DNA of 53,769 nucleotides from a virus, in IMG/VR virus record IMGVR_UViG_3300044614_002529, positions 1-53,769 of that record. The stretch is one strand, 5' to 3'. The notes beneath the pieces are model-generated. The model saw nothing but the letters and a program-made list of their open reading frames with translations. It was not told where the DNA came from and did not search any database. Shown piece after piece: positions 1,154 through 49,351 of this stretch (position 1 is its first letter; each line of letters begins with the position of its first letter). Position numbers and translations under genes: made by a program.

Positions 1154-1167
1154 TATAGCTTTCAACG
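1154..1167 (-). promoter_or_regulatory. Putative late promoter box (copy 1)
   Basis: Reading the minus strand, CGTTGAAAGC (1158-1167) is followed by TATACAGAAG and, 20 nt after the core, by the ATG of the 183-aa gene. It matches the bipartite motif CGTTGAAAGC, 4-5 nt, TAGARG found upstream of most structural genes in the window. Confidence 0.7.
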
Positions 1168-1169
1168 TG

Positions 1170-1200
1170 AAAAAGGCGGAGAGATCCGCATCCCTCCGCC
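1170..1200 (-). terminator. Rho-independent terminator after the SSB-like gene
   Basis: On the minus strand GGCGGAG pairs with CTCCGCC (1194-1200 with 1175-1181) around a 12-nt loop, followed by a run of U (1170-1174). It lies 31 nt past the stop of the 1232-2185 gene and just before the late box of the next gene, so it separates two transcription units. Confidence 0.8.
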
Positions 1201-1231
1201 CGTCAGTTTATTAACTGATCGAAGAAGCCGA

Positions 1232-2185
1232 TCAGAAGTTCAGATCCAGAGCATCATCGCTGATTTCTTCCTGTGCGGAAAGGATCATTGAGCAGCGGAT
1301 GCGAACTTTACCATCCTGCATCACCGTCTTATCCTTGATGTGGATAGTCGCGGGTTTCTCGGCCGAAACCTCGGGCTGGGTAGCCAGAAGCGGACGGAGA
1401 GACGCATGAGCCCAGCACTCGGCGGTTTCACCGGGAACGGGATAGTCAGCCAAAATGATACGGTACGACGCACCGTATTGGGTGTTAACTCCGCGGTAGC
1501 TTACCACCGTGTAGCTCTCACCCTCTTCCAGATCACGAAAATCGATATCGTGGTCGGCGTTTTGGCGGCTACCAGTTCCTTTGGGGGTTGCTTCTTGAAC
1601 TTGGGAGAGGATATCCTCTTCCTTGTTCTTTTTCATCAATGCGTTGAGAGCCTTGATTTCGGGGGGATTTTGCCAATCGACAAAACGTACGGCGATGGGG
1701 AGAACGACCTGCCCAGATCCGTCTTCTTCATCTACCGATACCATCAGCGCTGCGTCGTTGCCACGACCACTGAAATTGAATTCGGCAAACTCAGACTCGA
1801 GAGACACGGGTTGACCGTTGATATCAACAGTTACACCCTCTTTCCCGAGAGAAACCGGGATGTAACGGTTACCCCACTGGATGTAGGCGCGACCGGATTC
1901 GGTACCCTCCACATTGTCCGCACCGACCTTCAGGATCGGACCGAAGAGACGATTGTAAACGCCGTCTTCCGCCTTGATAAGGAAAGTGTTTTCTTCGAGC
2001 GGCAGCTCTTCGCCAGTCAGGGCGAGAAACACTTTATCAAGATCGCGCCGCATTGCTTTTGGCAGGTTGGCGTTAGGAAGAGAGGTATATGCTCCCGTAT
2101 ACTCACGACCTGCCAGAGGTGCGAGATCTGGAGATCCGGTTCCTACTTGGATTGTCTTGACTGTAAACGCTGTAGTTGTTGCCAT
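1232..2185 (-). CDS. Possible single-stranded DNA-binding protein
   Basis: A 317-aa protein starting MATTTAFTVKTIQV; a GTG 15 nt upstream is an alternative. No family is certain. The suggestion of an SSB rests on its beta-rich, soluble character, a central charged linker (MKKNKEEDILSQV), and the acidic C-terminus ending DDALDLNF, which resembles the acidic aromatic tails of bacterial SSB (DDDIPF) and T7 gp2.5. It is a stand-alone transcription unit with its own extended -10 promoter and terminator, and has no late box, consistent with an early replication or recombination protein. It could instead be another early protein with an acidic tail. What is seen is the tail and the gene layout; the function is inferred. 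Confidence 0.4.
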   Translation of the reverse strand: MATTTAFTVKTIQVGTGSPDLAPLAGREYTGAYTSLPNANLPKAMRRDLDKVFLALTGEELPLEENTFLIKAEDGVYNRLFGPILKVGADNVEGTESGRAYIQWGNRYIPVSLGKEGVTVDINGQPVSLESEFAEFNFSGRGNDAALMVSVDEEDGSGQVVLPIAVRFVDWQNPPEIKALNALMKKNKEEDILSQVQEATPKGTGSRQNADHDIDFRDLEEGESYTVVSYRGVNTQYGASYRIILADYPVPGETAECWAHASLRPLLATQPEVSAEKPATIHIKDKTVMQDGKVRIRCSMILSAQEEISDDALDLNF

Positions 2186-2208
2186 TGGGTTAGTTCTCAC
2201 TAGATATG

Positions 2209-2229
2209 GTCGGCTCAGGAGTGGCCGAC
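2209..2229 (-). promoter_or_regulatory. Hairpin at the predicted 5' end of the SSB-like mRNA
   Basis: GTCGGC (2209-2214) and GCCGAC (2224-2229) form a 6-bp stem with a 9-nt loop. From the promoter position the transcript would start at about 2229, so the mRNA would begin with this hairpin. A wider inverted repeat, AGTTCTC (2192-2198) and GAGAACT (2232-2238), brackets it; its outer arm lies in the promoter. Confidence 0.45.
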
Positions 2230-2235
2230 AAGAGA

Positions 2236-2547: not shown

Positions 2548-2548
2548 G

Positions 2549-3262
2549 CTAAAACCTCCTTACTTTTTCATGACCAACCCGTATAGACGGATTGACCCAC
2601 ATGTCTATTTTCGCGTCGCGTAAATTAAACGCGAAAGAAAGATCTTCTGATAGTACCTCGTAATCCTCGGAACGGTTGTAACGAATAATTTTTGGTGCAA
2701 ACCACGGGAATTTGAGTTTTTCCATGACTCCCTTCCGTATCAGCATCCAACCCATACCGCACCAATCAATACGATACGGTTCTTTTCTGTTTACAATGTC
2801 TGTGTCGTTTCGAAACGAATAAATATAGTCGATATCATAGATGGGTAACGGTGGATCATTAGGTTCAGGATAGGGGAACTCAGTTTTATTAAAATAACCG
2901 GTAACAGGTAAACCATTGGATTGATAGTACCAGCCAGTAGCTACTTCAACATTCATAGTAATCAAAGCATCGAAGTCGGAAGGCTTGAAATCGATGTCAG
3001 AGTCTATCCAAAGTAGGTAGTCATACACTAATTGATTAGTGAACGGTCTTTGATAAAGACCGTTGCTGTGGTGACCTCCAGCGACTTGTGCTCGTATTTG
3101 GTGGATTTCAGGCGAGTACCCTTGAGATAAAGTGGCGATTAGTCCGTATTTTCGCAAGTGATTCTCAAGTAGCACAAGATTTTCTACGAACCGGTAGGAA
3201 TACGTATAACCCGGAAGACAGATAACAACTCGAGAACCTGAATACGACGTAATATCGTGCAT
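2549..3262 (-). CDS. Glycosyltransferase-like protein, copy B of a tandem pair
   Basis: A 237-aa GT-A-type glycosyltransferase-like protein, probably adding sugar to a phage or host surface component. It has VVICLPG near the N-terminus, YLLWIDSDIDF (metal-binding DxD), the strongly conserved GMGWMLIRKGVMEK, SEDLSF (xED-like) and a C-terminal GHEK whose His could bind metal. It is clearly paralogous to the next gene along its whole length. I chose the ATG at 3262 rather than one 33 nt upstream, because aligning the two paralogues puts the shared N-terminus there and the start then lies just after the neighbour's stop. Acceptor and donor are unknown. Confidence 0.72.
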   Translation of the reverse strand: MHDITSYSGSRVVICLPGYTYSYRFVENLVLLENHLRKYGLIATLSQGYSPEIHQIRAQVAGGHHSNGLYQRPFTNQLVYDYLLWIDSDIDFKPSDFDALITMNVEVATGWYYQSNGLPVTGYFNKTEFPYPEPNDPPLPIYDIDYIYSFRNDTDIVNRKEPYRIDWCGMGWMLIRKGVMEKLKFPWFAPKIIRYNRSEDYEVLSEDLSFAFNLRDAKIDMWVNPSIRVGHEKVRRF

Positions 3263-3266
3263 GGCA

Positions 3267-3983
3267 TTAGATAACCCGAATCTTCTCATGGCCAACCCGA
3301 ACTTCAGGATTCATGACAATCTCAAAACCTGCATCGCGCAGACTGAGTTGGAACGACAAATCTTCTGACAACGTGTCAATGATCGTTTCAGTTGCTCGGA
3401 CGTTTTTTGGGGCAAACCATGGGTACGGAATTTTTTCCATTACTCCTTTTTTAATAAGCATCCAACCCATTCCAACCCAGTCAACCACATAAGAGTCGGT
3501 TTTATCGGAAATATCTTTATCTGGGCGAAACAAATAGGTGTGACCAGGGTCGTATAGAGGTAGTGACGGATGTGATTTTACCTTTTTACACGCAGACTTG
3601 TCAATGAATCCACAGGCCGGATTTCCATCTGGTTGGTAGTACCAACCTGTCGCGACATTGACACCCATTTCCAAAAGATCTGTGAAATTTTTTCGGTTGA
3701 ACACAATGTCCGAATCGATCCATAGCAGGTAATCGTAGTCGACTTCGGCTTCATCAAACGGTGTTTGAAACGTCCCTCTAGTGACATCTCCACCACCACA
3801 AATATTCCGTAGCCTGTGGATACAGGAAGAGTGAGTCTGGGCTAGGGTTACCTTTATGCCGTGAACAGCCAGCAGACTGTTAAGACCTACGATGTTTGTA
3901 AGAAAAGTCCCGGAGTAGTAGTCTCCAGGAAGGCAAAAAACAAATTTCTTGCCTTCGTATTTTTCGAGTAATGGGTCGGACAC
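3267..3983 (-). CDS. Glycosyltransferase-like protein, copy A of a tandem pair
   Basis: A 238-aa paralogue of the downstream gene. Shared landmarks are FVFCLPG, YDYLLWIDSDI, VATGWYYQPDG, GMGWMLIKKGVMEK, PWFAPKN, SEDLSFQLSLRDAG and a terminal VGHEK. DxD, xED and the C-terminal His are arranged as in GT-A glycosyltransferases. The likely start is a GTG at 3983, with no strong ribosome binding site. An extended -10 promoter at 4012-4020 lies just upstream and no CGTTGAAAGC box is present, so the pair (with the Mo-nitro_C-like gene) looks early rather than late. The family call is by motif; the substrate cannot be told. Confidence 0.72.
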   Translation of the reverse strand: MSDPLLEKYEGKKFVFCLPGDYYSGTFLTNIVGLNSLLAVHGIKVTLAQTHSSCIHRLRNICGGGDVTRGTFQTPFDEAEVDYDYLLWIDSDIVFNRKNFTDLLEMGVNVATGWYYQPDGNPACGFIDKSACKKVKSHPSLPLYDPGHTYLFRPDKDISDKTDSYVVDWVGMGWMLIKKGVMEKIPYPWFAPKNVRATETIIDTLSEDLSFQLSLRDAGFEIVMNPEVRVGHEKIRVI

Positions 3984-4011: not shown

Positions 4012-4020
4012 ATTATAACA
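4012..4020 (-). promoter_or_regulatory. Extended -10 promoter before the glycosyltransferase pair
   Basis: The minus strand reads TGTTATAAT, an ideal TGN-TATAAT extended -10, about 28 nt before the GTG start of the first glycosyltransferase-like gene. No clear -35 is seen. It lies in the 42-nt gap after the 1720-aa fibre gene. Confidence 0.55.
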
Positions 4021-4025
4021 TAAAC

Positions 4026-7000
4026 CTACTGTACGCGCATGATATATGCGAGTGAGTACCAAAGCGGTTCGACAGCGCTGACACCTGATAAAGAGTGAGA
4101 GTGGCCGACGGAGGGATCAGATCCACCTGCCAAACTATTTTGATTACCGGGTGCACAAAGTCCATCCGTTATACATCCACCACCTCCGCCAGTCCAAGAG
4201 TTACCCGTATTGATTACCACGTTGGAGTAGTTTGCTCCATCCGTACCGCCAAGAATATTAATTACGCTGTTGCCATATACTCCATGGACGTGACGAGGGA
4301 TATTTTGCTGCTGAAGAGCAGTTGCCCCAGTTGCTCCAGTAAGGGTAGGTCCACCAGATTGATTATTGTTAGCGGTTGTAGTTGCACCCTTAATGAAACG
4401 GTTTAGCAGGTTGGGTGTCGTGCGACCGTTTTTTGTTTGACCGTCACATATAGCCCAACGGGGATTTGTTGCGATATCTTCTACCGTACCAGACCACATA
4501 ATAATGCCACCGACTGGTACAAAACCTCCATAGCTCGGGTCGACGTTTACGGTATACTGTAAAATGTTGTCGGTTGGGTCGGCAGGGTCACCACCGGGAA
4601 CTTCAACAGACTGGCTAGTAACCAGAATGCCCGTACCCTGCACGAATGCGCTTTCAAACCGGAGATTAAGCTCTTGGGCTAGGTTGAACGCGCTGACCGC
4701 TACTTTGTCACTAATGCCTGTCGACTGACTACCCAGAGCGCCACGGATCATGGATTGATCAGCGAGTTGAATGATGCCGGCTTTAGACGTGCTGGCATAC
4801 ACCTGGGGTGGATTTCTACTGGCGACAATGTCGCCAGTGGTAAGCGACTTAAATATTGTATCGTTGCTGAAGAATACGGTGGTGTTACGACCTAGCACCA
4901 GACTTGAGTCGTCCTGCATTAAAAGGGTGTTGCGGACGATGACATTGTTCAGGATCTGGTTGGTCACGTTGCCCGGTTCGCCTTCGGCTGCCAGCGGAAT
5001 CGCGAATTGCTCGCCGGACCTAAGGTCAAAGACCGTCGTACCAATGTAATAACTGCCTTCCTCGTTCATGCCGGTGGCGTATACTCGGCCGCCGTTTTCC
5101 TCAACGATAATTTTTCCTAGCGCAAAATCCTGCTCTAGCGGATCGCCTTGGAAAGTGGGGAACGCAGTGTCATAGTTCAGGTATCCTGTCCATTCCCAGG
5201 TGTGACCTGAAGCACGGATTACAGATGGACGGCGTAGGCCGATTCGGAAACCGGTGGCTGTTACACTAGCCGACGTCTTAATGGTTATCGGAGTTACCGA
5301 CGGACCCAACGCAGCACTGTAGTGGACACCTGACCGGGCTTGCATTGCCTGCAGGGCGATCTTTGTGATGCTCTCAGCCGGGTCTTCCGTTAGTTCCGGG
5401 TAGTCGTTATCAACTCTAGGATAGTGATCACCTGTAAATACGTTTCGGGCTTGAGAACCCTGAGTAAGGTAAGTTACGTACTGACCAGGGAATCGGATGT
5501 CTTGTTTACCAGGTCTAAAAACCTCATCGTAAGTTCGAACCTGTGTAATAGTTAACGGATCAAGACGCAATTCATTGGAGTCGTTAAGAGGATAACCTGA
5601 TACCCCCTCTTGTTTCTCCATGATATAGTACGGTTGTGGTCTCCTGATACCACGTTCTTTTAGGTAGCCGTCTAAAACAACACGATACACCCTTTCATCC
5701 GCCTTACGTTTATCCGTCGCACGAATAATTTTAACTGCTGAGCGGTCGAAAATAAAATCTAAAGTGGCGAATATAGCATTGGTACCGGTCGGGTTACTAG
5801 TCAGTTTGTATCTGAAAGCGTAGTCGAATCGCTTTAACAGATAACCATCATCATCCAAGTCGGTATCTTCTTCAGCAATAGTTGAGGTCGTAATAGGAAC
5901 ATACCAGCTAGCACTACCGGTTACAGGGTCGCCATTAGAGTCGAGATCTGCTGGACTTTCGTCCCAGACAAAAATCTTAGATCGATCGTCTAAGGCTGTA
6001 AACCCGCTAGTGTTAGGGTCTGGGTCTTTAAGATTGCCAGCGAATAAAATCGAATTACCATTTTCATCAAATCCATTAACATAAATTCGTCGACGGTTCG
6101 CTCTTTCCGGACCACCAGAGAGTTCCCATGCCGTCTCACTAACCTTTTTAGTGTAAGAAAACTGTCCAAACGCAATATTAGATGCGGATGGAGGATTTAC
6201 AATAGAGAACGGGGACGCGGTGTTGGAGTTTTGAATGTAAATTCGGATTGTTGCTGGAGGCTTTCCGTCGACTGTCGGGTTATTTTTTACATACGCTAGG
6301 GTTTTGTTGTAATCAATGGTAATACCAGTATTTATTTCGGTATCTTCAAGAGTAGGAGGACGTCCATCAGGCAATGCACTGTATGAAAGAGGCAGAGGAG
6401 GAATTATTTGGGTAATACGAGTGCCACTATATCCCGATGCTGTGGTTGCTTCGTCTTGACTAAACGACTTTGCTTTGTAGCCAATACCTCGAAGTGAAAT
6501 ATCACCAAAATCAGAGCAGGAATTAGTAATTGATAAGTCGGCTCCAGATTCAGATACGAAGTGGTCGCTATTACCAATAACGAATACTGAGACGATCTGA
6601 ATCGTCGCATCGTTACTACCCCGCATACCAAAACTTCGGTACTTGAATTCGTCAGTCGTACAAATTTTATATTGTTTGCCTTCCCCTGATTGTTTGTTGG
6701 TTGGCGGATCTTGGAAATAAGTAGTAGGTGTGAAACAATTAGGATCGGTTTGTAGGGAGACCTGGGTAAAGTTTGCGGTCACCATTGATTTGAAGCCGGA
6801 TACTCGGCCTCCATCGGCCCATAGACCGTTTAGTCCAAAAATACTCCGAACGGAACAGTTAAAGACGTAAGGAGATGAGGAGCGGGTAGAGTTGATATCG
6901 GGAAGAGGAAGGATACTGCCATCCGTGTCTCGGATTCTTGTTGCACCAGGGTAGGATACAGGAGCACCAGCACGGCTATCACCACCGTCAACCAGCAGGC

Positions 7001-9188
7001 CAGTTTGGTTTTCTTCAATATCCTGCGACCGATTGGCTTTACTACCTGCAATCGGTGCGACAATGGTGGTTTCGGCTGGAATAGCTTCGAGGCCTTCTGA
7101 GCCCCAACCGTCAATATCACGGAAAAGATTATTGAGTCGGCTGTAATATGAAGATTCTGTACCGCTACCGTTGATTTCTGCCTGTGACGCGAACGCGACA
7201 GAGGTTACGGTATTATGGCTGCGGGCGTATTGAGGGTTGTCAGTGAAAGTGAGCAAGGAAACATATGTACCACCAGTAACTTTTAGGATCGCGGTGCGCT
7301 CAGTTTGAGGATCGTTCTGTACTGGGGTTAACTCCGGTACGTACATCGGTCGAATACGTACTTTTCTCAGGTCGGTGCCGTCGATCGAAATACCTCTTGG
7401 AACGATAAGGCCACCGGTTTGTGGGTTAACAGCGGCGAGGTTATCGTAATATAGATCATCGTTAATACTGAACGCACCGTTTACATATTCAAGGGTTACA
7501 ATCCAGTTAGAGTTAGACGGTGAAATTTTTTCTACCCGGACAACATTGCCAACACCACCCGATTCAGAGTACAAAACACGACCGAGGTTTAAGGAGCGGG
7601 GAGGTTGGTTAGAGACCGGATCGCCAACATCGATAGTAAGATGGACAACTCGATCGCCTTGAGCTACGCTGCCAATGCTATAACCAGTCTGGGTTCTTTG
7701 TACAAGGCCGGTATCGTCGGTAATAGTAAGCGTGGCCAGTGAACCGGGAGCATTATCGACATAGTAGTCGCCTGGAGCAAGCTCGATCATCACTCGGTCG
7801 TAACGGTCATTTGCTTGACCAGATCTGCGTGACTCTCGCACCGCCTCGATCAACGCACGCTCAAGTGTACGGAAGGGGCGGTTAGGCTCAAAACCACCAT
7901 TACGGATCGAATCGTCACCGATACTCGGATCGACGAAGATTGTATTACGGGTAGTTGATAATGCAGATGCTTGGCCGGTACGGTCGCAACGCGGTGCAGC
8001 GGCGACACTGATTAAACCGCCAGTCCCATTAGCGTACAGAGCAACGGAGTTATCATAAACACGGTAACACTTGCCCAGAGTCGGATTAGATTGAGATGGT
8101 TCGAAACTATAAATGCCCGCACTAGGTTCTGGATATTGGGTGGGAAGCTTACCTCCATCCGGACACTCAACAGCAGTCCGATCACCGATAAATTCACGAC
8201 CGCCACAAGATAGAAACGCACCGAGGACAGGATTGCACTCAGATCCTGGTGCTTCTTCAAATTTCCACTGGCCGGTACCGGAGTGGTAAAACAACTCCAG
8301 GTGCGCGTCTCGAATGTTAACAATCCAGTCGTCGCTGGAGTTATTGAGCAGTTCGGCAGATACGGAATTCTGGCGAATGATTAGCGGAAACCGGTCAAAC
8401 GTGCCACTGATGTCCACCACAGCGATGCGGTCGGAGTCGTTGGGGGATTCTGGCAGAGTGAGGATGATACTGCCATTGCTAGTGTCGGCAATAACCCGAT
8501 CCCATGCCATCGCGGTATAATCCGCTGACTTAATCACCGTATTGGTGAGGTTCTGTGGGTAGGTATTGAGGTTGCCGACAAACGTATTGGGCCTGAGATC
8601 TACATAGCCGGTGCCTACAACTTCGCCCGTTGTTGGGTTAGTAGCTAAACCATTTCCGGTGGAGTTTAGCGTAATTTTCGCTAGTGGTACATGTGCCTCG
8701 GTTACACTGGGTAACGAGTTACCGATTGATACGGTAACGGGAGCGGTGGCGTTTTCAAGAACATAGAGGTAAGATACGCTATTCGCACCGCCAAGGATTT
8801 GAACGGTCTGTCTTGCCCAAGAAATCGGATTGCCATTACGCTTAACAATGCTACCCGCTTCTACTGTTACACCGATACCACCTGAACCGACAGGGCGGGT
8901 ACTAGGTACACCAGGAACGACTACGGCCGATGTTGTTAGATTCCAACCTAGTACGATGCCATCGTGAGCCGTACGACCTAACGCGGATTCTTGATCGACC
9001 CGGGGATCGGCAATTTCCCAATCTTTGATTCGGTCACGTTGACCAATTTGCCAACCCGCCTCATCGCCAGTTGTCGGGTCGGCGTAGTAGTCGGTTCGAG
9101 TATCGCCGGTAAACTTTTCTCCTTTCTGTACCTCATTCAGGTACGCGCTAGATACGGCTCTGCCGTTTTGAAATACGATACGATCCAC
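4026..9188 (-). CDS. Large tail fibre/baseplate protein with C-terminal tail-collar domain
   Basis: A 1720-aa virion protein. The last ~165 residues form a phage tail collar domain: PVGGIIMWSG, WAICDGQTKNGRTTPNLLNRFIKGA, the HxH-type metal sites PRHVHG and GHSHSL, and a closing LWYSLAYIMRVQ, as in T4 gp12 short tail fibres. Around residue 410, TIFVDPSIGDDS ... PNRPFRTLERALIEA resembles the opening of a right-handed beta-helix, and a long beta-rich region follows. The N-terminus (SSAYLNEVQKGEKF) may be the virion attachment part. The start is GTG at 9188 with AAGGA 14 nt upstream, 26 nt after a CGTTGAAAGC box. Probably a host-contacting fibre or baseplate appendage; the exact position on the particle is inferred. 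Confidence 0.85.
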   Translation of the reverse strand: MDRIVFQNGRAVSSAYLNEVQKGEKFTGDTRTDYYADPTTGDEAGWQIGQRDRIKDWEIADPRVDQESALGRTAHDGIVLGWNLTTSAVVVPGVPSTRPVGSGGIGVTVEAGSIVKRNGNPISWARQTVQILGGANSVSYLYVLENATAPVTVSIGNSLPSVTEAHVPLAKITLNSTGNGLATNPTTGEVVGTGYVDLRPNTFVGNLNTYPQNLTNTVIKSADYTAMAWDRVIADTSNGSIILTLPESPNDSDRIAVVDISGTFDRFPLIIRQNSVSAELLNNSSDDWIVNIRDAHLELFYHSGTGQWKFEEAPGSECNPVLGAFLSCGGREFIGDRTAVECPDGGKLPTQYPEPSAGIYSFEPSQSNPTLGKCYRVYDNSVALYANGTGGLISVAAAPRCDRTGQASALSTTRNTIFVDPSIGDDSIRNGGFEPNRPFRTLERALIEAVRESRRSGQANDRYDRVMIELAPGDYYVDNAPGSLATLTITDDTGLVQRTQTGYSIGSVAQGDRVVHLTIDVGDPVSNQPPRSLNLGRVLYSESGGVGNVVRVEKISPSNSNWIVTLEYVNGAFSINDDLYYDNLAAVNPQTGGLIVPRGISIDGTDLRKVRIRPMYVPELTPVQNDPQTERTAILKVTGGTYVSLLTFTDNPQYARSHNTVTSVAFASQAEINGSGTESSYYSRLNNLFRDIDGWGSEGLEAIPAETTIVAPIAGSKANRSQDIEENQTGLLVDGGDSRAGAPVSYPGATRIRDTDGSILPLPDINSTRSSSPYVFNCSVRSIFGLNGLWADGGRVSGFKSMVTANFTQVSLQTDPNCFTPTTYFQDPPTNKQSGEGKQYKICTTDEFKYRSFGMRGSNDATIQIVSVFVIGNSDHFVSESGADLSITNSCSDFGDISLRGIGYKAKSFSQDEATTASGYSGTRITQIIPPLPLSYSALPDGRPPTLEDTEINTGITIDYNKTLAYVKNNPTVDGKPPATIRIYIQNSNTASPFSIVNPPSASNIAFGQFSYTKKVSETAWELSGGPERANRRRIYVNGFDENGNSILFAGNLKDPDPNTSGFTALDDRSKIFVWDESPADLDSNGDPVTGSASWYVPITTSTIAEEDTDLDDDGYLLKRFDYAFRYKLTSNPTGTNAIFATLDFIFDRSAVKIIRATDKRKADERVYRVVLDGYLKERGIRRPQPYYIMEKQEGVSGYPLNDSNELRLDPLTITQVRTYDEVFRPGKQDIRFPGQYVTYLTQGSQARNVFTGDHYPRVDNDYPELTEDPAESITKIALQAMQARSGVHYSAALGPSVTPITIKTSASVTATGFRIGLRRPSVIRASGHTWEWTGYLNYDTAFPTFQGDPLEQDFALGKIIVEENGGRVYATGMNEEGSYYIGTTVFDLRSGEQFAIPLAAEGEPGNVTNQILNNVIVRNTLLMQDDSSLVLGRNTTVFFSNDTIFKSLTTGDIVASRNPPQVYASTSKAGIIQLADQSMIRGALGSQSTGISDKVAVSAFNLAQELNLRFESAFVQGTGILVTSQSVEVPGGDPADPTDNILQYTVNVDPSYGGFVPVGGIIMWSGTVEDIATNPRWAICDGQTKNGRTTPNLLNRFIKGATTTANNNQSGGPTLTGATGATALQQQNIPRHVHGVYGNSVINILGGTDGANYSNVVINTGNSWTGGGGGCITDGLCAPGNQNSLAGGSDPSVGHSHSLSGVSAVEPLWYSLAYIMRVQ

Positions 9189-9210
9189 AGCGATGAGTTA
9201 AATCCTTCTA

Positions 9211-9224
9211 TTACGCTTTCAACG
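9211..9224 (-). promoter_or_regulatory. Putative late promoter box (copy 2)
   Basis: The minus strand shows CGTTGAAAGC (9215-9224), then GTAATAGAAGG and the GTG start of the 1720-aa fibre 26 nt after the core. It sits 4 nt beyond the stop codon of the 9229-9705 gene. Confidence 0.75.
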
Positions 9225-9705: not shown

Positions 9706-9728
9706 GGTAATTTCTCTACCTTCTACTA

Positions 9729-9749
9729 CGCTTTCAACCGTTGAAAGCG
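9729..9749. promoter_or_regulatory. Divergent pair of late promoter boxes fused into a palindrome (copies 3 and 4)
   Basis: A perfect 21-bp inverted repeat (10-bp arms around one base). The minus copy, GGTTGAAAGC (9730-9739), is followed by GTAGTAGAAGG and the 9705 start. The plus copy, CGTTGAAAGC (9739-9748), is followed by GCTTTAGAGGG and the GTG at 9774. It therefore appears to drive the small structural gene leftward and the whole baseplate operon rightward. Confidence 0.78.
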
Positions 9750-9773
9750 CTTTAGAGGGTAATAACATTCCGC

Positions 9774-18601: not shown

Positions 18602-18610
18602 TGCTATAAT
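18602..18610 (+). promoter_or_regulatory. Extended -10 promoter of the sigma-factor operon
   Basis: TGCTATAAT is a perfect TGN-TATAAT, 30 nt before the ATG of the thioredoxin-like gene and just after the terminase stop. No late box is present. It would let the host RNA polymerase transcribe the sigma factor early. Confidence 0.65.
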
Positions 18611-18639: not shown

Positions 18640-18963
18640 ATGACATCGGAATTTAAGTACCGGACAGTGTTTTTTACGATGCCTGGCTGTGCGGCATGCG
18701 AAGCTATGAAGCCGATTTGGGCTAAAGTGGCTGGTGAAGTAGCCGAAGAGTATCCAGAGCTCCGGGTGGGTTGGGGAGAATACGACGTTCTAGACGATAA
18801 CTGGGAATTTTTAGAGTCGCTTGTCCCTGGGACATCTGGTCAAGGGACCCCGGAGTTCGCCGTCTTTGACGATGAATGTGAACTCATTGCATTTAACGGT
18901 GATGGCATTATGGCCGCTAGCCAACTCAAAGACTTTATTATCTCATCCATCCATGGAGCTTAA
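18640..18963 (+). CDS. Thioredoxin-fold protein
   Basis: A 107-aa protein with the active-site motif MPGCAACEAMKP (CxxC, residues 18-21) at the end of the first strand and GTPEFAVF, the cis-proline loop typical of thioredoxins, about residue 70. It may supply electrons to ribonucleotide reductase, whose small subunit is encoded at the start of the window, or act as a redox chaperone. The ATG at 18640 has GGAG a few bases upstream. It overlaps the sigma-factor gene by 11 nt, so the two are made together. Thioredoxin versus glutaredoxin type is not settled; CAAC is not the classical WCGPC. Confidence 0.85.
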   Translation: MTSEFKYRTVFFTMPGCAACEAMKPIWAKVAGEVAEEYPELRVGWGEYDVLDDNWEFLESLVPGTSGQGTPEFAVFDDECELIAFNGDGIMAASQLKDFIISSIHGA

Positions 18964-19648
18964 TTCGAGACGGAGGGGCAAGAGATCGGAGTACGAGGTT
19001 ACTCGCGATCGGCATATTCGTGAGAATATGTGGAAAGCGGCTCATGCGGCGAGAAAAGTCGCAACGTTTAGTGGTTTACCGTTTGAAGAGTTGAGATCGG
19101 TAGCGTTAGAGGCGATGGTGAAACTGTATGACAAATGGGATCCGAGCAAGGCGAATTTTAGTACTTGGCTCAATCGGTCTATGACGTTTCAGATTCTTAA
19201 TTATCTTCGTGACAGTTCACGAATGATCAAGATGCCGAGATCATATGCTGACGCATATATGAAGATTCGGAAAATCATTGGCGCGAATCCGGAAATCAGC
19301 GATGACGACGTTGCCGAACAAACTGGTCTTGATCCGATTCTGATCCGTGAAACCCGTAACGCGTATCAGGTTACGTATCAGGAGGTAAACGAAGACACCG
19401 AGATGCCGATTGATGATGATGACCCGGATCCTGATAGTATTAAGAAGATGCTAACGGATTACAGCGGGACGCTAGAACGGTTATCTGATTTACCAGAAAA
19501 GGAATACAACTTCCTAGTCGATGTATATATCCATAAACGTGCATTATCGACTATCGCGAAGAAGAATCCGGGAGTTTGTACTCATGAAAAGATTCGAGAA
19601 CGTACGGATGAAATACTACGTAAGGTTCTGAGCGACGATGAGTACTAG
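18953..19648 (+). CDS. Phage-encoded sigma-70-like factor (gp55-like late sigma)
   Basis: A 231-aa RNA polymerase sigma factor. Region 2 is at about 41-98 (LPFEELRSVALEAMVKLYDKW, DPSKANFSTWLNRSM, LRDSSRMIKMPRS). A region-3-like helical segment, NPEISDDDVAEQTGLDPILIRE, spans about 112-133, then an acidic linker (145-161), and a degenerate region-4 helix-turn-helix at 174-227 (LSDLPEKEYNFLVDVYIHKR ... THEKIRERTDEILRKVL). The start ATG at 18953 gives MELNSRRRGKR, with a basic N-terminus. By position and size it corresponds to T4 gp55, which directs late transcription; the CGTTGAAAGC boxes in front of virion genes are the obvious candidate target. The sigma call is firm; the target is inferred. 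Confidence 0.88.
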   Translation: MELNSRRRGKRSEYEVTRDRHIRENMWKAAHAARKVATFSGLPFEELRSVALEAMVKLYDKWDPSKANFSTWLNRSMTFQILNYLRDSSRMIKMPRSYADAYMKIRKIIGANPEISDDDVAEQTGLDPILIRETRNAYQVTYQEVNEDTEMPIDDDDPDPDSIKKMLTDYSGTLERLSDLPEKEYNFLVDVYIHKRALSTIAKKNPGVCTHEKIRERTDEILRKVLSDDEY

Positions 19649-20357
19649 ACGTTATGTGACCGTATGCGGTCAAGAGTATAACAAAAAAGGGTTCGCGGCT
19701 AAGTGGAGTGCGATGGTGGCTGGCTATGAGGCTGGTGTCACCTTGATCCCTGCCGACACCTCTTTCGTTAACGACATCTTGCTTCGGATTCCTCGCTTCG
19801 CTAGGGTGTTGGCCCGAGGACGAGTATCGTACAAGGTTGTCAACCAGACGTTTAACGGGAAACGGGTCAAAGGTATCGTACTTGTGACACCGAATTCTGG
19901 CTACGAGGTGTGGGTGGGTAAGCAGGTAGTGGTGAAGGCGATGTTTCCGCCGATTAATGCGCCCGATCCGTCGAAGGAAAATCGCAGGAACGTCTTACGT
20001 GCGTTGCGAGGGGTCATTGAACCGCAGATCGCAGAATATCGTAAACGGTTTAAGGGGCAATCGGTTGTCAAATCGTCGTTAACTGGTAAGCCGATATTCG
20101 GCGCTTACCATATCGACCATGTATATCCGTTTATTCGTCTGGTTGAGGAGTGGTGCAGGGAGAAGGGAGTGGACCTGGAGACGTTAAAAGTGAAGTGCAT
20201 AGGCACAATATGCCGACTCGAATCCGTAGACCTCGCCGAATCCTGGTTCGATTACCATGCGTTACACGCGGAGTTTCAAGTCCTCGACGCGGCGGAGAAT
20301 GTATCAAAGGGAGCCCGATATTTCGGGAGACCGAAAAATTCTATCGAAGATTCGTGA
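19638..20357 (+). CDS. DUF3223-like protein with HNH-type histidine motif
   Basis: A 239-aa protein. Residues about 45-105 (VNDILLRIPRFARVLARG ... VLVTPNSGYEVWVGKQVVVKAMF) resemble DUF3223. The C-terminal half contains YHIDHVYPFIRLVEEW (HIDH, about residue 155) and FDYHALHAEFQVLDAAENVSKGARYF, together like an HNH-type nuclease core (paired His, later His and Asn). Phage proteins with this combination occur next to replication and recombination genes; it could act in DNA repair, recombination or host DNA breakdown. It overlaps the sigma gene by 11 nt, and its 3' end overlaps the opposite-strand gene by 54 nt. The catalytic role is inferred from the motif only. Confidence 0.6.
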   Translation: MSTRRYVTVCGQEYNKKGFAAKWSAMVAGYEAGVTLIPADTSFVNDILLRIPRFARVLARGRVSYKVVNQTFNGKRVKGIVLVTPNSGYEVWVGKQVVVKAMFPPINAPDPSKENRRNVLRALRGVIEPQIAEYRKRFKGQSVVKSSLTGKPIFGAYHIDHVYPFIRLVEEWCREKGVDLETLKVKCIGTICRLESVDLAESWFDYHALHAEFQVLDAAENVSKGARYFGRPKNSIEDS

Positions 20358-24646: not shown

Positions 24647-24681
24647 TGGGAATTTACCCGTTAACTATGATCTCTCATATA

Positions 24682-24691
24682 GCTTTCAACG
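24682..24691 (-). promoter_or_regulatory. Putative late promoter box (copy 5)
   Basis: The minus strand reads CGTTGAAAGC followed by TATATGAGAG, 35 nt before the ATG of the 239-aa virion gene. It sits 7 nt past the stop of the homing endonuclease gene. Confidence 0.7.
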
Positions 24692-25966: not shown

Positions 25967-25991
25967 GGGCGGCAGGGTGGGTACTTCTATC

Positions 25992-26020
25992 TTGCTTTCA
26001 ACGGGCAAAAGTCGTATGAT
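25992..26020 (+). promoter_or_regulatory. Possible sigma-70-like promoter of the nucleotide kinase gene
   Basis: TTGCTT and TATGAT (26015-26020) are separated by 17 nt and lie about 24 nt before the kinase ATG. The -35 overlaps the opposite-strand late box. The match is moderate and the TGN element is missing. Confidence 0.35.
25994..26003 (-). promoter_or_regulatory. Putative late promoter box (copy 6)
   Basis: The minus strand reads CGTTGAAAGC then AAGATAGAAG, 27 nt before the chosen ATG of the small virion protein. Confidence 0.7.
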
Positions 26021-26637: not shown

Positions 26638-26647
26638 CGTTGAAAGC
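26638..26647 (+). promoter_or_regulatory. Putative late promoter box upstream of a short terminated transcript (copy 7)
   Basis: CGTTGAAAGC is followed by AGTATAGGAAGG. The next recognised gene, phoH, starts 104 nt later, while an intrinsic terminator lies between. This is the only copy not placed 20-35 nt before a convincing gene; a weak GTG frame starts at 26670, 22 nt away. Confidence 0.6.
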
Positions 26648-26695
26648 AGTATAGGAAGGACAGATCAGTGTGATTCACGACCTGCCAAAATTCCC

Positions 26696-26734: not shown

Positions 26735-26751
26735 GTATCTACACCAATTAC

Positions 26752-27685: not shown

Positions 27686-27705
27686 TACGTGTATCCCTCT
27701 ACCCC

Positions 27706-27723
27706 GCTTTCAACGTTGAAAGC
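27706..27723. promoter_or_regulatory. Divergent late promoter boxes fused into an 18-bp palindrome (copies 8 and 9)
   Basis: GCTTTCAACGTTGAAAGC is a perfect palindrome. The minus copy (27706-27715) is followed by GGGGTAGAGGG and the 72-aa gene. The plus copy (27714-27723) is followed by CATATAGAATAG and the 1047-aa gene. The two copies overlap by the central two bases. Confidence 0.78.
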
Positions 27724-27750
27724 CATATAGAATAGTATATTGTCTGTAGC

Positions 27751-36054: not shown

Positions 36055-36083
36055 CCACCAACAAATAAGCTACTCTCTATAGA

Positions 36084-36093
36084 GCTTTCAACG
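36084..36093 (-). promoter_or_regulatory. Putative late promoter box (copy 10)
   Basis: The minus strand reads CGTTGAAAGC then TCTATAGAGAG, 29 nt before the LRR protein start. It begins one base past the stop of the upstream 1343-aa gene. Confidence 0.75.
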
Positions 36094-43188: not shown

Positions 43189-45447
43189 TCAAAAGGAGTG
43201 GGCGATTAGGTTGCCGTCAGCGACGAAGTAGTTAGAGCGAACGATAAACAATGAGCCGCCCAGGAATTCGACAGGGGTAGATGACAGTGAGAGGCCGGAG
43301 ATAGGATTTAGAAGGAGGGAATTAGTATCGGAATCGATACCGACTACGGTGTACGCAGAGGTTTGATCCCAAGCATTAAGACCAGAGTTGCTGAAGCCGG
43401 AGATTCGGATCTTATCGTTTTCGGTGCTGGTAGCCGAATATATTTGGAAACTTAACAGATCACTAGGGTTTCGCAGAGCGATAGCGATGTATGGGTTACC
43501 ACCGATTGTCGCGCTGCAGATAGATAGTGGTGAAAATCCTCGAGATCCATTACCAATCAACACGGTCGAGGTGACCTCGTACATGTACCCACTAACGTTA
43601 GTTAGCGTGTTTGTCGCAGGTATGGTTTTACCACCTACCGTTGCGGTTGTGGTGCCGGGAAGAGTCAGGGAAAAAATACCAGCCTCGAGTTGTGCGGCGG
43701 TTTCGAGTACCCGGAAAGATCCGATGGCGGGAGTAGTTTTAATGCCTGCTGCATTTAACGCGAAAATGTCCGCGTTTATCGAGTTCTTGACAATACCGAC
43801 AGACTCGCCACCCAACGTTACAGTCATGTACACAGGGTCAAGAGCAATACCTTGACGAACCTCAATTGCTGCTTTGCTGTATTCGTTGTTGTAGGTATCG
43901 ATGGAACGGATGACGGAGTCATTGTCGCTGTAGGCCAGGTTACCCTGCGCGTTCCATTGGAACGAGTTTTCAAGTTTCAGTCCGGCATCCCCACACGACC
44001 GAATAATGTTACCGTTAATTGTGCTGTACTCGGTACTGACAACTCTGGGTCCGGTGGTTGCGAATTCTAAACGATTGCCTTGCGCGACGATGTTTTCGCT
44101 TGTATCGATTAGTAGTGGTGATACGGTTTGTTCGTAGGCGCGGCCGGTAAACTGTACCGTGTTGTTGGTAATAGCCGCGCCACGTGTGCCGTATAGTGCG
44201 ATTCCGCCTCCACCGCATTCGGCCACCGTGCAGTCGTTAATGATGATGTTATCCCCGTATTTAATTTGTAGTCCTACTTCCGACGTGATCGGTGATACCT
44301 GAGAAAACGATTCGCTTCGGTTACCGTCGATCGCAATTGAACGGATACGGATGCCAGAAACTCTTGGTGATACTGATTCACCGGTAAAGTTTAAAACGCC
44401 AGGGGTTGTCGGATTACTTAACGTGCACGCAAGACGCCTAATGACCGAACCGTCACCAATGCCTCGAAGTGAAAGGTTGGAGAAATCAGACTGTGACGTA
44501 TTAACAAACGACGTATCGGAGATATTGTAAATTCCGGCTGGGAAAAACACCTCTTTGATTGAGCCGGACGCAGCGAGAGACAGTGCGTTACGGACGGATT
44601 CGGTGTCGTCGATGACGAAGCGAGCAGTGTGGCCGGCGGCAAGTTGACTACCGATAGAAATCCCGGTACATTGAATGTAGCTGGGCAAAGAGCCTAGTGG
44701 ATTCGGGATGATCCGTAACCGCTCCCGACCTCGCACTCTCCGGACTTGTGTTACCTCAGATCCGGCAACGGAGAATACGTTGGACAGGTAAGAGGGGAGG
44801 ACGGGGTCGGACTCCCACCCTGGAATTTCAAGTAGACCGAGGTCGCGAAAGACGTTATTCCCCGAACCCGGGTAGCCGACTTTGTTATTTCCGATAACGC
44901 CGAGAAAATCTACTCGGTTGCCCCAGACTCGGTAGATGACTGGCAATGCGTACTGGGTGGTTCGGGAGAAAGTGAGTTGAACGTATTGCTCGGTTCCCCA
45001 AAGGTCCGGATTCAGGACTTTAGTACCGACATTTACAGTCGATCGAAAGAACGGCAAGCGACCGTTTTGTGGATCGAATCCGAAGACGTAATAAGTTAAC
45101 GGGGCTAGGTTGAAGTTAGTGCCAGGTGAATTTGAGAAATCAACACCGACGGAGGTGTGGGCTGATACGGAGAGAATAGGGGTGTCGGCAACAGTTGGGG
45201 AGTCGTATGAAAATACCTGCAGACCCGTGCCAGACTTCAGCACGTCCTGGTACTGAAATAACGAGTTACCTTCTCCGTCATCAATGCTTGAAATAGTAAC
45301 TATGTTATCGCTAATATCTGTTATTGTTCCAGTAAATTCTAGATCACCTCGTCCAGTCGCCCCGAGATTTCGTACATTAACGTACGCGTTCCGATCTTCT
45401 GGAACCTGGACTACAACGTCCCCTGACCTCTCCGGTATGTACCGCAT
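43189..45447 (-). CDS. Tailspike-like protein with right-handed beta-helix
   Basis: A 752-aa protein. From about residue 275, NALSLAASGSIKEVFFPAGIYNIS is the standard opening of phage pectate-lyase-like beta-helices (DT..i..Al..A...g..v.lPaG.Y.i). Coils follow: LSLRGIGDGSVIRRL, SGIRIRSIAIDGNRS, DNIIINDCTVAECGGGGIAL, AAITNNTVQFTG, ENIVAQGNRLEF, STINGNIIRSCGDAGLKLEN. Such spikes bind and often cleave surface polysaccharides; no catalytic residues are assigned here. The start is ATG 45447, 20 nt after a late box with AGAGGAT between. Confidence 0.85.
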   Translation of the reverse strand: MRYIPERSGDVVVQVPEDRNAYVNVRNLGATGRGDLEFTGTITDISDNIVTISSIDDGEGNSLFQYQDVLKSGTGLQVFSYDSPTVADTPILSVSAHTSVGVDFSNSPGTNFNLAPLTYYVFGFDPQNGRLPFFRSTVNVGTKVLNPDLWGTEQYVQLTFSRTTQYALPVIYRVWGNRVDFLGVIGNNKVGYPGSGNNVFRDLGLLEIPGWESDPVLPSYLSNVFSVAGSEVTQVRRVRGRERLRIIPNPLGSLPSYIQCTGISIGSQLAAGHTARFVIDDTESVRNALSLAASGSIKEVFFPAGIYNISDTSFVNTSQSDFSNLSLRGIGDGSVIRRLACTLSNPTTPGVLNFTGESVSPRVSGIRIRSIAIDGNRSESFSQVSPITSEVGLQIKYGDNIIINDCTVAECGGGGIALYGTRGAAITNNTVQFTGRAYEQTVSPLLIDTSENIVAQGNRLEFATTGPRVVSTEYSTINGNIIRSCGDAGLKLENSFQWNAQGNLAYSDNDSVIRSIDTYNNEYSKAAIEVRQGIALDPVYMTVTLGGESVGIVKNSINADIFALNAAGIKTTPAIGSFRVLETAAQLEAGIFSLTLPGTTTATVGGKTIPATNTLTNVSGYMYEVTSTVLIGNGSRGFSPLSICSATIGGNPYIAIALRNPSDLLSFQIYSATSTENDKIRISGFSNSGLNAWDQTSAYTVVGIDSDTNSLLLNPISGLSLSSTPVEFLGGSLFIVRSNYFVADGNLIAHSF

Positions 45448-45464
45448 GCGAAATATCCTCTACT

Positions 45465-45647
45465 TTAGCTTTCAACGAAAAACCGGCCGAGGAGTGGATG
45501 GGAACTGAGGCCAGAATCCGCTAATTCGGATAACGACTGCTTAAGTTCTTTCTCTCGTACCGGGTCATTTTGTAGTGAGTTTAACTCTTGCTCGATTTGA
45601 TATGGGTCGGGGTATTTGCCGTCGACACGGTAAATATTTTCAAGCAT
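45465..45647 (-). CDS. Small protein, 60 aa
   Basis: Not recognised. A charged, helical protein (PDPYQIEQELNSLQNDPVREKELKQSLSELA). It starts at ATG 45647, 1 nt from the stop of the preceding 131-aa gene, and its 3' end spans the next late box (45468-45477). Coupling to the upstream gene and a sensible helical composition argue that it is real. Confidence 0.6.
   Translation of the reverse strand: MLENIYRVDGKYPDPYQIEQELNSLQNDPVREKELKQSLSELADSGLSSHPLLGRFFVES
45468..45477 (-). promoter_or_regulatory. Putative late promoter box (copy 11)
   Basis: The minus strand reads CGTTGAAAGC, TAAAG, then TAGAGGAT, 20 nt before the tailspike ATG. Spacer is 5 nt instead of 4. It lies within the last codons of the 60-aa gene. 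Confidence 0.72.
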
Positions 45648-46053: not shown

Positions 46054-46362
46054 TTAGCTCCAGATTGCGGTGTTAATAAACTGCGCGGCGTGCATGCCGA
46101 CTGCGTCGGCCCGGCGGATTGGGGAGTACGCGGTTTCAGGGTCTGACTCCACCTCGATGACGTTACGGGCGAGGACGAGAGGAATCTCGGATCCAAATCC
46201 GTCCTGGAGTCGGCCCTGGTTACGGAGAGCAAGGTTGCCAGTTCGTCGGAGGGGTAAGAAAGTGGTCGGTACTCCGTCGGTATCGGGTTGACCGGTAACG
46301 GTTGTAAGAACGACGTTTCTAAAGGTCTTCGAAATATCGAAGTTTTGAATGTCTTGAGCCAC
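46054..46362 (-). CDS. Small virion protein, 102 aa
   Basis: Not recognised. It begins at GTG 46362 (MAQDIQNFDISKTFRN), 25 nt after a late box, and heads a small operon with the 131- and 60-aa genes. Composition is soluble and beta-rich. The late box and neighbours suggest a virion protein associated with the fibre or tailspike. Confidence 0.7.
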   Translation of the reverse strand: MAQDIQNFDISKTFRNVVLTTVTGQPDTDGVPTTFLPLRRTGNLALRNQGRLQDGFGSEIPLVLARNVIEVESDPETAYSPIRRADAVGMHAAQFINTAIWS

Positions 46363-46387
46363 GGAAACGAATTAACTCTACTACTGT

Positions 46388-46397
46388 GCTTTCAACG
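46388..46397 (-). promoter_or_regulatory. Putative late promoter box (copy 12)
   Basis: The minus strand reads CGTTGAAAGC, ACAG, TAGTAGAG, 25 nt before the GTG of the 102-aa gene. It overlaps the region upstream of the opposite-strand extended -10 promoter. Confidence 0.68.
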
Positions 46398-46969: not shown

Positions 46970-47287
46970 TCACCACGGTACGCCTGAGGCTTTGGTAGGT
47001 TGACGCTGCTCTAGGATTTGCTGTTCCAGAGCGGCGTGAATCTCATCGATTTTTTCCGCACCGCCTAGCTTTTCTTTTACCCAGCCGATTACGATATCGG
47101 AGGTAAGTTCGGAGTACGGGATGACGGTATCTCCTTCTGCCGGGGCTTCGAGGCCGATAGAACCATAGGCGCCGGAACTGTAGACGTTGTCGGTGGCGGA
47201 AACTTGGTAATGCGCTGTGTATACAATGCCATCGGCAGTGTGTCGTTCTAGATTAGCGATGGACCAGGTGAATTGGATGTCAGACAT
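46970..47287 (-). CDS. DUF7936-like cyanophage protein, 105 aa
   Basis: A 105-aa protein of a family common in cyanophages: FTWSIANLERHTADGIVYTAHYQVSATD at the N-terminus, then VIPYSELTSDIVIGWVKEKLG, and a C-terminus LEQQILEQRQPTKASGVPW (Gly-x-Pro-Trp). The usual pattern is W.I..LER...DG.V...HW...A.D, ...LTe..vi.WV...lg, ...P....G.PW. Function unknown; often found near fibre genes. It has a variant late box 26 nt upstream. Confidence 0.75.
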   Translation of the reverse strand: MSDIQFTWSIANLERHTADGIVYTAHYQVSATDNVYSSGAYGSIGLEAPAEGDTVIPYSELTSDIVIGWVKEKLGGAEKIDEIHAALEQQILEQRQPTKASGVPW

Positions 47288-47313
47288 AACAATAATGGGA
47301 GTACCCTATAGTA

Positions 47314-47323
47314 GCTATCAACG
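47314..47323 (-). promoter_or_regulatory. Variant late promoter box (copy 13)
   Basis: The minus strand reads CGTTGATAGC (one mismatch), TACTA, TAGGG, 26 nt before the ATG of the DUF7936-like gene. Confidence 0.6.
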
Positions 47324-47353
47324 GAATTTTAGCAAAACGACAGAAAAGATTAG

Positions 47354-49306
47354 TTAACAAGCCATAAGTACACAAGGCACGCAGTAGCTGCCGTCGCCAT
47401 AGGTGCAGCTCACGTTGGTGCTGGTGACTTTGGCGATGGTTTTACTGCGGATGATGTCGTCGTCTTGGGGTTTGGCGGTACCATCACCTGCGGACATGAG
47501 CAGATCACCCCGCTCGACAGTGACGCCCTGAGCGATCCGGATAATGAAGTCACCCGTCATTGCGCAGTAGAAGTCGTTGGTGTAGGTGTCGTCGTCATCG
47601 TCCCAAGCCTGGAACACACCGGACACGTTCTTATCACCTTCAACGTCGCTCACCTTCATTCGGTTGAGCTGTTCATTGTCCTCTTCGCCCCATTCGCACA
47701 TCTCGTCAATGTTGGAGAGAACAGTGCCACGCAGGATTTCAGTGCGCTCAGCACCAGAAGGAAGTTGAGACCAGCGGCTTAAGTGAGCGCCGTTGTAAGA
47801 AACGGTTGTGCCAGAAACAGAAATAGTACCTTCTTCAATGCCATCTTGACGGAGTGAAACAATTGTACCGTCGTTAGTCGTTCTAGAAAAAGTAACTACC
47901 GTGCCCCCGCCAGTAACAAAAGCTGTTGTTGCATTGCCTTGGCGTATTTGAACACCTTCAGTAGTAAAATCATTTACAGTTTTTCCAATAAATACAGTTC
48001 CATCACTTGTAATCCTCATCCGCTCCGTCGGAGAACTCGCCCCATCCGCAGTAGTGGAGAACACCAGCCTACCTGGGTAGTCATTTGCCCCACTGGTCGC
48101 ATCGGCGGTAGCTGTTATCTGGGCGAATACACCTGAGTTACTGCTTTGGTCAGTAAAACGCAAATAACCAATGTCAGTCCCAGCTCCCAACCCTGCAGAA
48201 GCCAATCCGTTGTAAGAGATCTGCGCAACACCAACAGCAGAACCGTTTGATGCACCTTGAACTACCAGTTTGCTTACACCGCCAGACCCATCAGACGTGC
48301 CCACTAGAAGCCTGCCGGAGCTGTCGATGCGGGCGCGTTCGGTACCATCTGTCCAGAACTTATGTGAGCCGCCTGTTGTGCTTCCTAGATAATAATTAAG
48401 ATCAGGTCTTGTAGTATTTGTGTTTCGATTTAGATACTCTAATACCCCTCCGTTGAAGGTGGTAGTTGCTGGACTAAACTCAAAATTTTCATTGTTGGTT
48501 GATACTACTAGCTTGGCGTTAAGGCTCGTAGTGCCAATCCCTAAACGGCCTGACGTATCCAGCAGCATTCTTGTGGTGCTGTTTGTCATAAACCCACAAT
48601 CATGGTTTGAAAGCGAACCGATTTCTGGACGAGTTGAATAACCAATTCCTCCGTAAATTGTGCCATTTCCAGCACTAATAACACCTCCTTGAACATCAAG
48701 TTTATAACTAGGCGAACTAGTCCCTATGCCCACGAGCCCTGCCTGCGTAATTCGCATACGCTCGGCAATACCTGAACTATTATTAGTACTAAACGTAATC
48801 TGCCCCTGGTCGCTAAATGAACCAGTTAAAAAGCCAATTTGAACAACGTCAAATTGGTTTGCAGAACCAGCAAAAGAACCAATTTTACTGATAAGAGAAT
48901 TGGCAGATGCAAATCCGGCGCCATTAACAAGGCGAATATTGCCACTGGCGTGAATAATTTCTTGAGGGCTTGAAACTCCAATCCCAATATTCCCACTTGC
49001 ATCAACAAACAACCTGCCAGACCCACCAGTGCTGATGGCTACTTGGTCTGCGCCGGGGGAATAAATGCCAGTATTTAAATCACCCGTAAACGACAGACTC
49101 GGTGCCGCTGCGGTGCCGGCTACCAGCGATATCGAACCATCCGCATTTTCCCGTATCTGCGACCAGTCCAATACTCCGTTGCTGTTTTTAAGAATCTGAC
49201 CGGATGAACCAGAACTGGCCGGAAAGGTTATTTTATTATTACCGGCTACAGGTGCGGCCTCGAGTTCGGTATAGCCAGAGGCTGATCCGTTGAGTCGTAA
49301 AGTCAT
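47354..49306 (-). CDS. Tail fibre protein with repetitive shaft and cyanophage C-terminal domain
   Basis: A 650-aa fibre. The N-terminal part has LNTGIYSPGADQVAIS and GRLFVDASGN, shared with the two following fibre genes. The shaft carries repeats such as LGIGT(T/S), ARIDSSGRLLVGTS and RMRITSDG. The C-terminal ~150 residues contain NRMKVSDVEGDKNVSGVFQAW, DDDDDTYTND, GDFIIRIAQGVTVERGDLLMS and end CVPCVLMAC, a conserved C-terminal domain of cyanophage fibres. It has a late box 35 nt upstream. The distal domain probably caps the fibre or binds the host. Confidence 0.82.
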   Translation of the reverse strand: MTLRLNGSASGYTELEAAPVAGNNKITFPASSGSSGQILKNSNGVLDWSQIRENADGSISLVAGTAAAPSLSFTGDLNTGIYSPGADQVAISTGGSGRLFVDASGNIGIGVSSPQEIIHASGNIRLVNGAGFASANSLISKIGSFAGSANQFDVVQIGFLTGSFSDQGQITFSTNNSSGIAERMRITQAGLVGIGTSSPSYKLDVQGGVISAGNGTIYGGIGYSTRPEIGSLSNHDCGFMTNSTTRMLLDTSGRLGIGTTSLNAKLVVSTNNENFEFSPATTTFNGGVLEYLNRNTNTTRPDLNYYLGSTTGGSHKFWTDGTERARIDSSGRLLVGTSDGSGGVSKLVVQGASNGSAVGVAQISYNGLASAGLGAGTDIGYLRFTDQSSNSGVFAQITATADATSGANDYPGRLVFSTTADGASSPTERMRITSDGTVFIGKTVNDFTTEGVQIRQGNATTAFVTGGGTVVTFSRTTNDGTIVSLRQDGIEEGTISVSGTTVSYNGAHLSRWSQLPSGAERTEILRGTVLSNIDEMCEWGEEDNEQLNRMKVSDVEGDKNVSGVFQAWDDDDDTYTNDFYCAMTGDFIIRIAQGVTVERGDLLMSAGDGTAKPQDDDIIRSKTIAKVTSTNVSCTYGDGSYCVPCVLMAC

Positions 49307-49341
49307 GGAAATTTAATACGCGCGTCACCGCCTTCTTAAAG

Positions 49342-49351
49342 GCTTTCAACG
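49342..49351 (-). promoter_or_regulatory. Putative late promoter box (copy 14)
   Basis: The minus strand reads CGTTGAAAGC, CTTT, AAGAAGG, 35 nt before the 650-aa fibre gene. The first T of the TAGARG block is replaced by A. Confidence 0.7.

Follow-up and report, generated by a model that had tools for sequence, protein, structure and literature searches.

A two-part motif as the probable late promoter of the cyanophage S-TIM5 lineage, and the phage sigma factor proposed to read it

A two-part motif of 19-20 letters, found ahead of virion genes in the IMG/VR virus record IMGVR_UViG_3300044614_002529 (53.8 kb, analysed over its whole length and referred to here as the window), is very probably the DNA late promoter of the S-TIM5-like cyanomyovirus lineage, and a sigma factor encoded in the same window quite probably reads it. 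An initial annotation, made from the sequence alone, had proposed a late promoter and, as its reader, a sigma factor of the phage itself, and was largely right. The proposal is supported by the specificity of the motif for one gene class, by its conservation at orthologous sites and by a clade-wise switch of its core together with the sigma factor, and it further fits the absence of a T7-type RNA polymerase or sigma-54 and the presence of a host-type promoter ahead of the sigma operon. TIM5-like cyanophages form a separate myovirus lineage that infects cyanobacteria. The window, which carries myovirus genes (baseplate J, terminase, tail fibres, PhoH and the sigma factor), is a member of this S-TIM5 lineage, with a terminase 59% identical to that of S-TIM5 and genes that follow the S-TIM5 gene order. 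The IMG/VR relatives used for comparison comprise two near-identical strains (G001 and G002) and more distant genomes (G003-G007 and others).

All 14 cores listed in the initial annotation are present in the window and, as it claimed, have at most one mismatch: 12 are exact copies of CGTTGAAAGC, while those at 9730 (GGTTGAAAGC) and 47314 (CGTTGATAGC) differ at one position. Thirteen lie 20-35 nucleotides (nt) from a start codon, again as claimed, when measured from the core end to a plausible start (gene starts are simple open reading frame (ORF) calls), the exception being 26638. The copies, given below with bit scores from the matrix described further on, are confined to the leaders of transcription units, mostly of virion genes.

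1148..1167, minus strand: late-promoter copy of 20 nt, CGTTGAAAGCTATACAGAAG (26.5 bits), core end 20 nt ahead of gene 586-1137; conserved in G003, G004 and G007
9205..9224, minus strand: late-promoter copy (23.9 bits), 26 nt ahead of a tail fibre of 1720 amino acids (4026-9188)
9720..9739, minus strand: late-promoter copy (21.1 bits), ahead of 9229-9705 (S-TIM5 gp099 homologue); divergent with the plus-strand copy at 9739
9739..9758, plus strand: late-promoter copy (23.5 bits), ahead of 9774 (gp100)
24672..24691, minus strand: late-promoter copy (22.3 bits), ahead of 23927-24646 (S-TIM5 gp112 virion homologue); second block TATGAGAG
25984..26003, minus strand: late-promoter copy (27.9 bits), ahead of 25637-25966
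26638..26657, plus strand: late-promoter copy (26.2 bits), 65 nt ahead of the PhoH ORF start used (26713-27510); weak or degenerate in relatives
27696..27715, minus strand: late-promoter copy (22.0 bits), ahead of 27467-27685; divergent with the plus-strand copy at 27714, sharing the palindrome GCTTTCAACGTTGAAAGC
27714..27733, plus strand: late-promoter copy (27.3 bits), ahead of 27751-30894 (PA14-like virion protein at the S-TIM5 gp116 position)
36074..36093, minus strand: late-promoter copy (27.4 bits), ahead of 32536-36054, between two co-directional genes
45458..45477, minus strand: late-promoter copy (15.9 bits), ahead of 43189-45447 (tail spike-like, S-TIM5 gp121 homologue); TAG shifted one base further
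46378..46397, minus strand: late-promoter copy (24.2 bits), ahead of 46054-46362
47304..47323, minus strand: late-promoter copy, one core position mismatched, CGTTGATAGC TAC TATAGGG, ahead of 46970-47287; under the matrix threshold
49332..49351, minus strand: late-promoter copy (23.5 bits), ahead of 47354-49306 (tail fibre)

The divergent late promoters at 27706-27723 and 9730-9748 overlap by 1-2 base pairs (bp), the former pair making up an 18-bp palindrome, and divergent pairs are kept in several relatives with their cores overlapping or a few bp apart. The plus-strand copy at 9739..9758 heads the gp100-baseplate-terminase operon, which continues into the sigma operon. Directly upstream of the promoter at 24672-24691 stands a homing-endonuclease-like gene (phrog_314; 24699-25631, minus strand); the near-identical strain G002 is without about 1 kb at this gene, which therefore appears to have been inserted next to the late promoter recently.

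Allowing up to two mismatches, the core alone matches the window 67 times, compared with 49.7 +/- 7.3 times in dinucleotide shuffles, the surplus coming from copies with an exact or nearly exact core. A matrix of 20 positions, derived from 87 sites in relatives and using none from the window or the near-identical strains, was applied at a cut-off of at least 13 bits and gives 14 matches in the window, compared with a mean of 0.54 (maximum 2) in shuffles and none for the reversed matrix, so that the comparison with shuffled controls suggested in the initial annotation places the copies far above chance. These matches include 13 of the 14 annotated copies, 47314 falling under the threshold because the matrix was trained on exact cores. 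The additional match, 16961 on the plus strand (CGGTGAAAGCACGTTATACG), lies inside the preceding gene just ahead of the terminase ORF start, is conserved in relatives, though probably through the protein sequence, and was not counted. Scans of IMG/VR with the exact motif returned 77 stretches, 50 of which belong to the S-TIM5-like lineage; most copies in the other 27 are single and chance-like. The profile of 105 sites with exact cores from the lineage reads (C)GTTGAAAGC-NN-T-A/G-T-A-G-A-A-R at fixed spacing, with no conservation further upstream or downstream. Conservation of the core is not to be judged from cores chosen as exact; the second block was unselected, and TAG follows the core at an offset of 4 nt in 55 of the 105 sites, where 2.6 are expected. 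The second block had been described as TAGARG at 4-5 nt: it is present, but is better written NN-T-A/G-T-A-G-A-A-R, and the offset is fixed at 4, with 5 occurring only in a minority (45468 and 47314).

Gene classes (late or non-late) were assigned via homology to annotated S-TIM5 genes. With this classification, and in agreement with the claim that virion genes are the main bearers, in four relatives pooled the motif stands ahead of 40 of the 78 virion homologues and none of the 32 other genes, while in S-TIM5 itself the core variant GTTTAAAG is found at 17 of 46 virion genes and 1 of 42 others (p = 3e-5). On the 127-kb contig G004, the genes with the motif ahead of them are homologues of sheath, portal, tail fibre, head and other virion proteins; no copy was found ahead of topoisomerase, DNA polymerase, ribonucleotide reductase, primase, ATPase or sigma. 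A less clear case is PhoH, its copy lying 58-65 nt ahead of the gene in the window and G002, at or just beyond the edge of the interval tested. The accompanying claim that early-looking genes lack the motif holds for the glycosyltransferase-like gene; the sigma operon has no copy directly ahead of it, but forms the final part of a late operon driven by the motif.

In ten sets of orthologous sites (including those of the window copies starting at 9205, 9720, 9739, 24672, 25984, 27714, 36074, 45458 and 46378), TAG is 92% identical to the window and position -1 is 84% identical, compared with about 30% in both flanks, and the element is recovered across relatives as (C)GTTGAAAGC-NN-TATAGAAR. At the same genes, the sister clade to which S-TIM5 belongs carries GTTTAAAG-N5-6-TAGA, S-TIM5 itself being without GTTGAAAGC at these places and having GTTTAAAG instead; in this clade the spacing is variable, and start codons cluster 24-34 nt past the core. 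Relatives of the window sigma factor are encoded at 80 loci. In clade A (30 loci, sigma at least 55% identical to that of the window) GTTGAAAG prevails at 161:22 copies, and in clade B (52 loci, including S-TIM5, sigma about 40% identical to that of the window) GTTTAAAG prevails at 217:37. Because GTTTAAAG usage also holds in clade B members of 51-56% G+C, base composition is not the cause of the core change: core type tracks the sigma phylogeny independently of G+C. Among the sigma positions fixed differently in the two clades are T73Q and Q75H, both in the helix resembling region 2.4.

The sigma operon and the host-type promoters are as follows.

18640..18963, plus strand: thioredoxin-like protein, first gene of the sigma operon (weak Pfam Thioredoxin match, E 0.006); anchor conserved in 82 loci
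18953..19648, plus strand: phage sigma factor, with region 2, a helix-turn-helix-like region 3 and a sigma-4-like C-terminus; proposed late-promoter reader
19638..20357, plus strand: gp109, conserved partner gene that shares an overlap with the sigma gene; its fold matches PDB 2k0m
18602..18610, plus strand: host-type extended -10, TGC TATAAT, after the terminase gene and ahead of the sigma operon, in the gap separating them
4012..4020, minus strand: host-type extended -10, TGT TATAAT (first T of the hexamer at 4017), ahead of the glycosyltransferase-like gene 3267-3983, which is without the late motif

The sigma factor (phrog_351) matches Sigma70_r2 (E 1e-8), its fold matches bacterial sigma factors along its length, its C-terminal part folds like sigma region 4 in the structure model, and regions 2.3-2.4 have its highest density of invariant residues. 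In all relatives checked, the first gene of the operon encodes a thioredoxin-like protein. The partner gene gp109 is conserved alongside sigma in all relatives compared and contains an invariant YHxDHVYPF motif; it has no Pfam match, and comparison of its structure model gave a match to PDB 2k0m (template modelling score 0.74 on target), which we take to be a DUF3223/DCL-type domain, with no DNA-binding fold recognised. Of 58 distinct leaders of the sigma operon, 57 carry a TGN-TATAAT-like element, compared with 2.9 expected, and the remaining one has a -35/-10 pair, TTGACA + TATAAT. The window gene at 2200 likewise has an extended -10 and no late motif ahead of it, and the extended -10 sites of S-TIM5 precede 10 of 42 non-late compared with 3 of 46 late genes. 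This distribution indicates two promoter sets with little overlap, the sigma gene belonging to the host-type set. Its additional position downstream of the late promoter at 9739 would allow positive feedback. The glycosyltransferase-like genes 2549-3295 and 3267-3983 (minus strand) are adjacent, overlapping paralogues, both assigned to phrog_1574.

A model leading from host polymerase through phage sigma to late promoters appears likely as a whole. Early in infection, host RNA polymerase with its own sigma factor would use TGN-TATAAT promoters to transcribe the replication and metabolism genes as well as the thioredoxin-sigma-gp109 operon; the phage sigma factor would then join the host core polymerase and bring it to (C)GTTGAAAGC-NN-TATAGAAR in the window clade, or to GTTTAAAG-N5-6-TAGA in the S-TIM5 clade, where the virion transcription units would be driven, presumably late and in some cases from divergent overlapping pairs. 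The core may be an unusually long (extended) -10-like element, in which core base A5 would be the flipped base at -11 and the clade-variable base 4 (G or T) would be -12, with transcription starting at the G of TAG (G16 = +1) and giving leaders of about 14-29 nt that begin GAAR. In sigma-70, region 2.4 reads DNA at -12. This register is favoured because the clade-variable base falls at that position and because it gives leaders of at least 13 nt and a purine at +1, and we regard it as having an even chance of being exact. The two blocks lie about one helical turn apart (10-bp offset), and therefore do not form a standard -35/-10 pair. A tentative extension, which we hold slightly less probable than its opposite, is that they constitute a new class of sigma-dependent promoters, with a -10-like element of 9 bp (GTTGAAAGC or GTTTAAAG) and a fixed initiator, TATAGAAR, in place of the -35/-10 pair, and with a change between the two clades in the base, G or T, that region 2.4 prefers at -12.

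The same late promoter could also be read in another register, with TATAGA as the -10. Transcription would then begin roughly 10 nt later, and a separate activator of the phage would occupy the GTTGAAAGC core just upstream, similar to MotA of T4 but placed closer. TATAGA is indeed similar to a -10 hexamer in many copies, and gp109 would be a conserved partner co-transcribed with sigma; however, position 13, where the A of -11 is expected, is A in only 56% of sites, compared with 84% for A15, start codons as close as 19 nt past the core would leave leaders of a few nt, and gp109 is without a recognised DNA-binding fold, making this register unlikely. Very improbable is that the motif acts at the RNA level, in the 5' leader, as a translation enhancer, Shine-Dalgarno sequence or processing site, and that the true promoters lie elsewhere. 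The position of the copies 20-35 nt ahead of start codons and the similarity of the GARG block to a ribosome-binding site would suit it, but the AAR letters are equally conserved at near and far starts, two divergent gene pairs have overlapping copies that make most sense on DNA, and the 105-site profile contains no other conserved promoter-like signal upstream.

The layout of that profile is also the layout of a T7/SP6-type promoter for a single-subunit phage RNA polymerase, with a specificity block from -15 to -7, TATA from -4 to -1 and GAAG from +1, and the SP6 consensus ends in TATAGAAG. Against such a polymerase, for which the probability is if anything slightly lower still, PF00940 has no match in the window, in S-TIM5 and S-TIM54 (both complete) or in 15 further contigs, the T7 control being positive; a T7+SP6+Syn5 profile run with filters off matches only the DNA polymerase of these phages (E about 1.4); and the spacing varies in the S-TIM5 clade. 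A multisubunit phage polymerase was considered and rejected, since the DxDGD pattern occurs only in tail-fibre, sheath and other apparently non-polymerase ORFs. A sigma-54 promoter would have a similar geometry, but no RpoN was found in the phage genomes, control genomes being positive (host genomes were not searched). Hardly credible is a host sigma-70 variant, or a repeat due to chance or composition. The core contains TTGAAA, which is similar to a -35 hexamer, but this lies one helical turn from TATAG instead of about 17 bp, there is no conserved -10 at 17 bp, where start codons already occur, and the 105-site profile has no second element at the 16-18 bp spacing of host hexamers. The real host-type promoters of these phages stand before other genes, and the copies far exceed those in shuffles.

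Several points weigh against the sigma-read late promoter. The structure model of the sigma factor is of moderate confidence (predicted local distance difference test score 66), Pfam sigma region 4 has no match in the protein, and, despite the sigma-4-like domain, no -35 is conserved upstream of the core in the 105-site profile. The covariation of sigma and motif amounts to essentially one evolutionary switch between two clades, and in the absence of repeated covariation is therefore suggestive only. About half of the virion genes tested are without a direct motif, as operons would give, and the late and non-late classes depend on the annotation of S-TIM5.

Among known systems, the late promoters of T4 and T4-like cyanophages, read by gp55, are similar in the use of a phage sigma factor with host core polymerase, the short -10-like element without a -35, and the virion genes served (T4 late transcription is reviewed in PMC2988020). 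The T4 late element is TATAAATA, whereas here a GTTGAAAGC or GTTTAAAG core is followed by the conserved initiator TATAGAAR; TATAAATA has 0 copies in the window, which bears out the distinction drawn in the initial annotation. Also unlike gp55, the proposed reader is a sigma-70-like factor with region 2, helix-turn-helix-like region 3 and sigma-4-like C-terminus, and has a host-type promoter ahead of it. T7/SP6 promoters share the contiguous 19-23 bp layout ending in TATAGAAG, but no single-subunit polymerase is encoded in the complete relatives. SPO1 late promoters (CGTTAGA / GATATT) have similar upstream letters and a phage sigma factor, with a normal -35/-10 spacing of about 18 bp, whereas here the blocks are one helical turn apart. 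Ma-LMM01 is likewise a cyanomyovirus, with three expression classes, and its late promoters are similar to host sigma-70 sites, no phage-specific motif having been found there (PMC5780444).

In the literature searched, no phage promoter description matching this motif in sequence and layout was found, and the open literature searched contains no description of TIM5 late promoters or of a late transcription programme, though an earlier mention, for example in the original S-TIM5 paper, is possible. With the motif, late and early genes of uncultured relatives could be told apart from sequence alone. Under the proposed register, transcription should start at the G of TAG and two sigma residues should read base 4, and the two clades would represent a natural specificity swap. 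The minus-strand block 47354-53715 holds three consecutive tail-fibre genes with common PHROG families and repeat segments, and differs in the near-identical strain G001.

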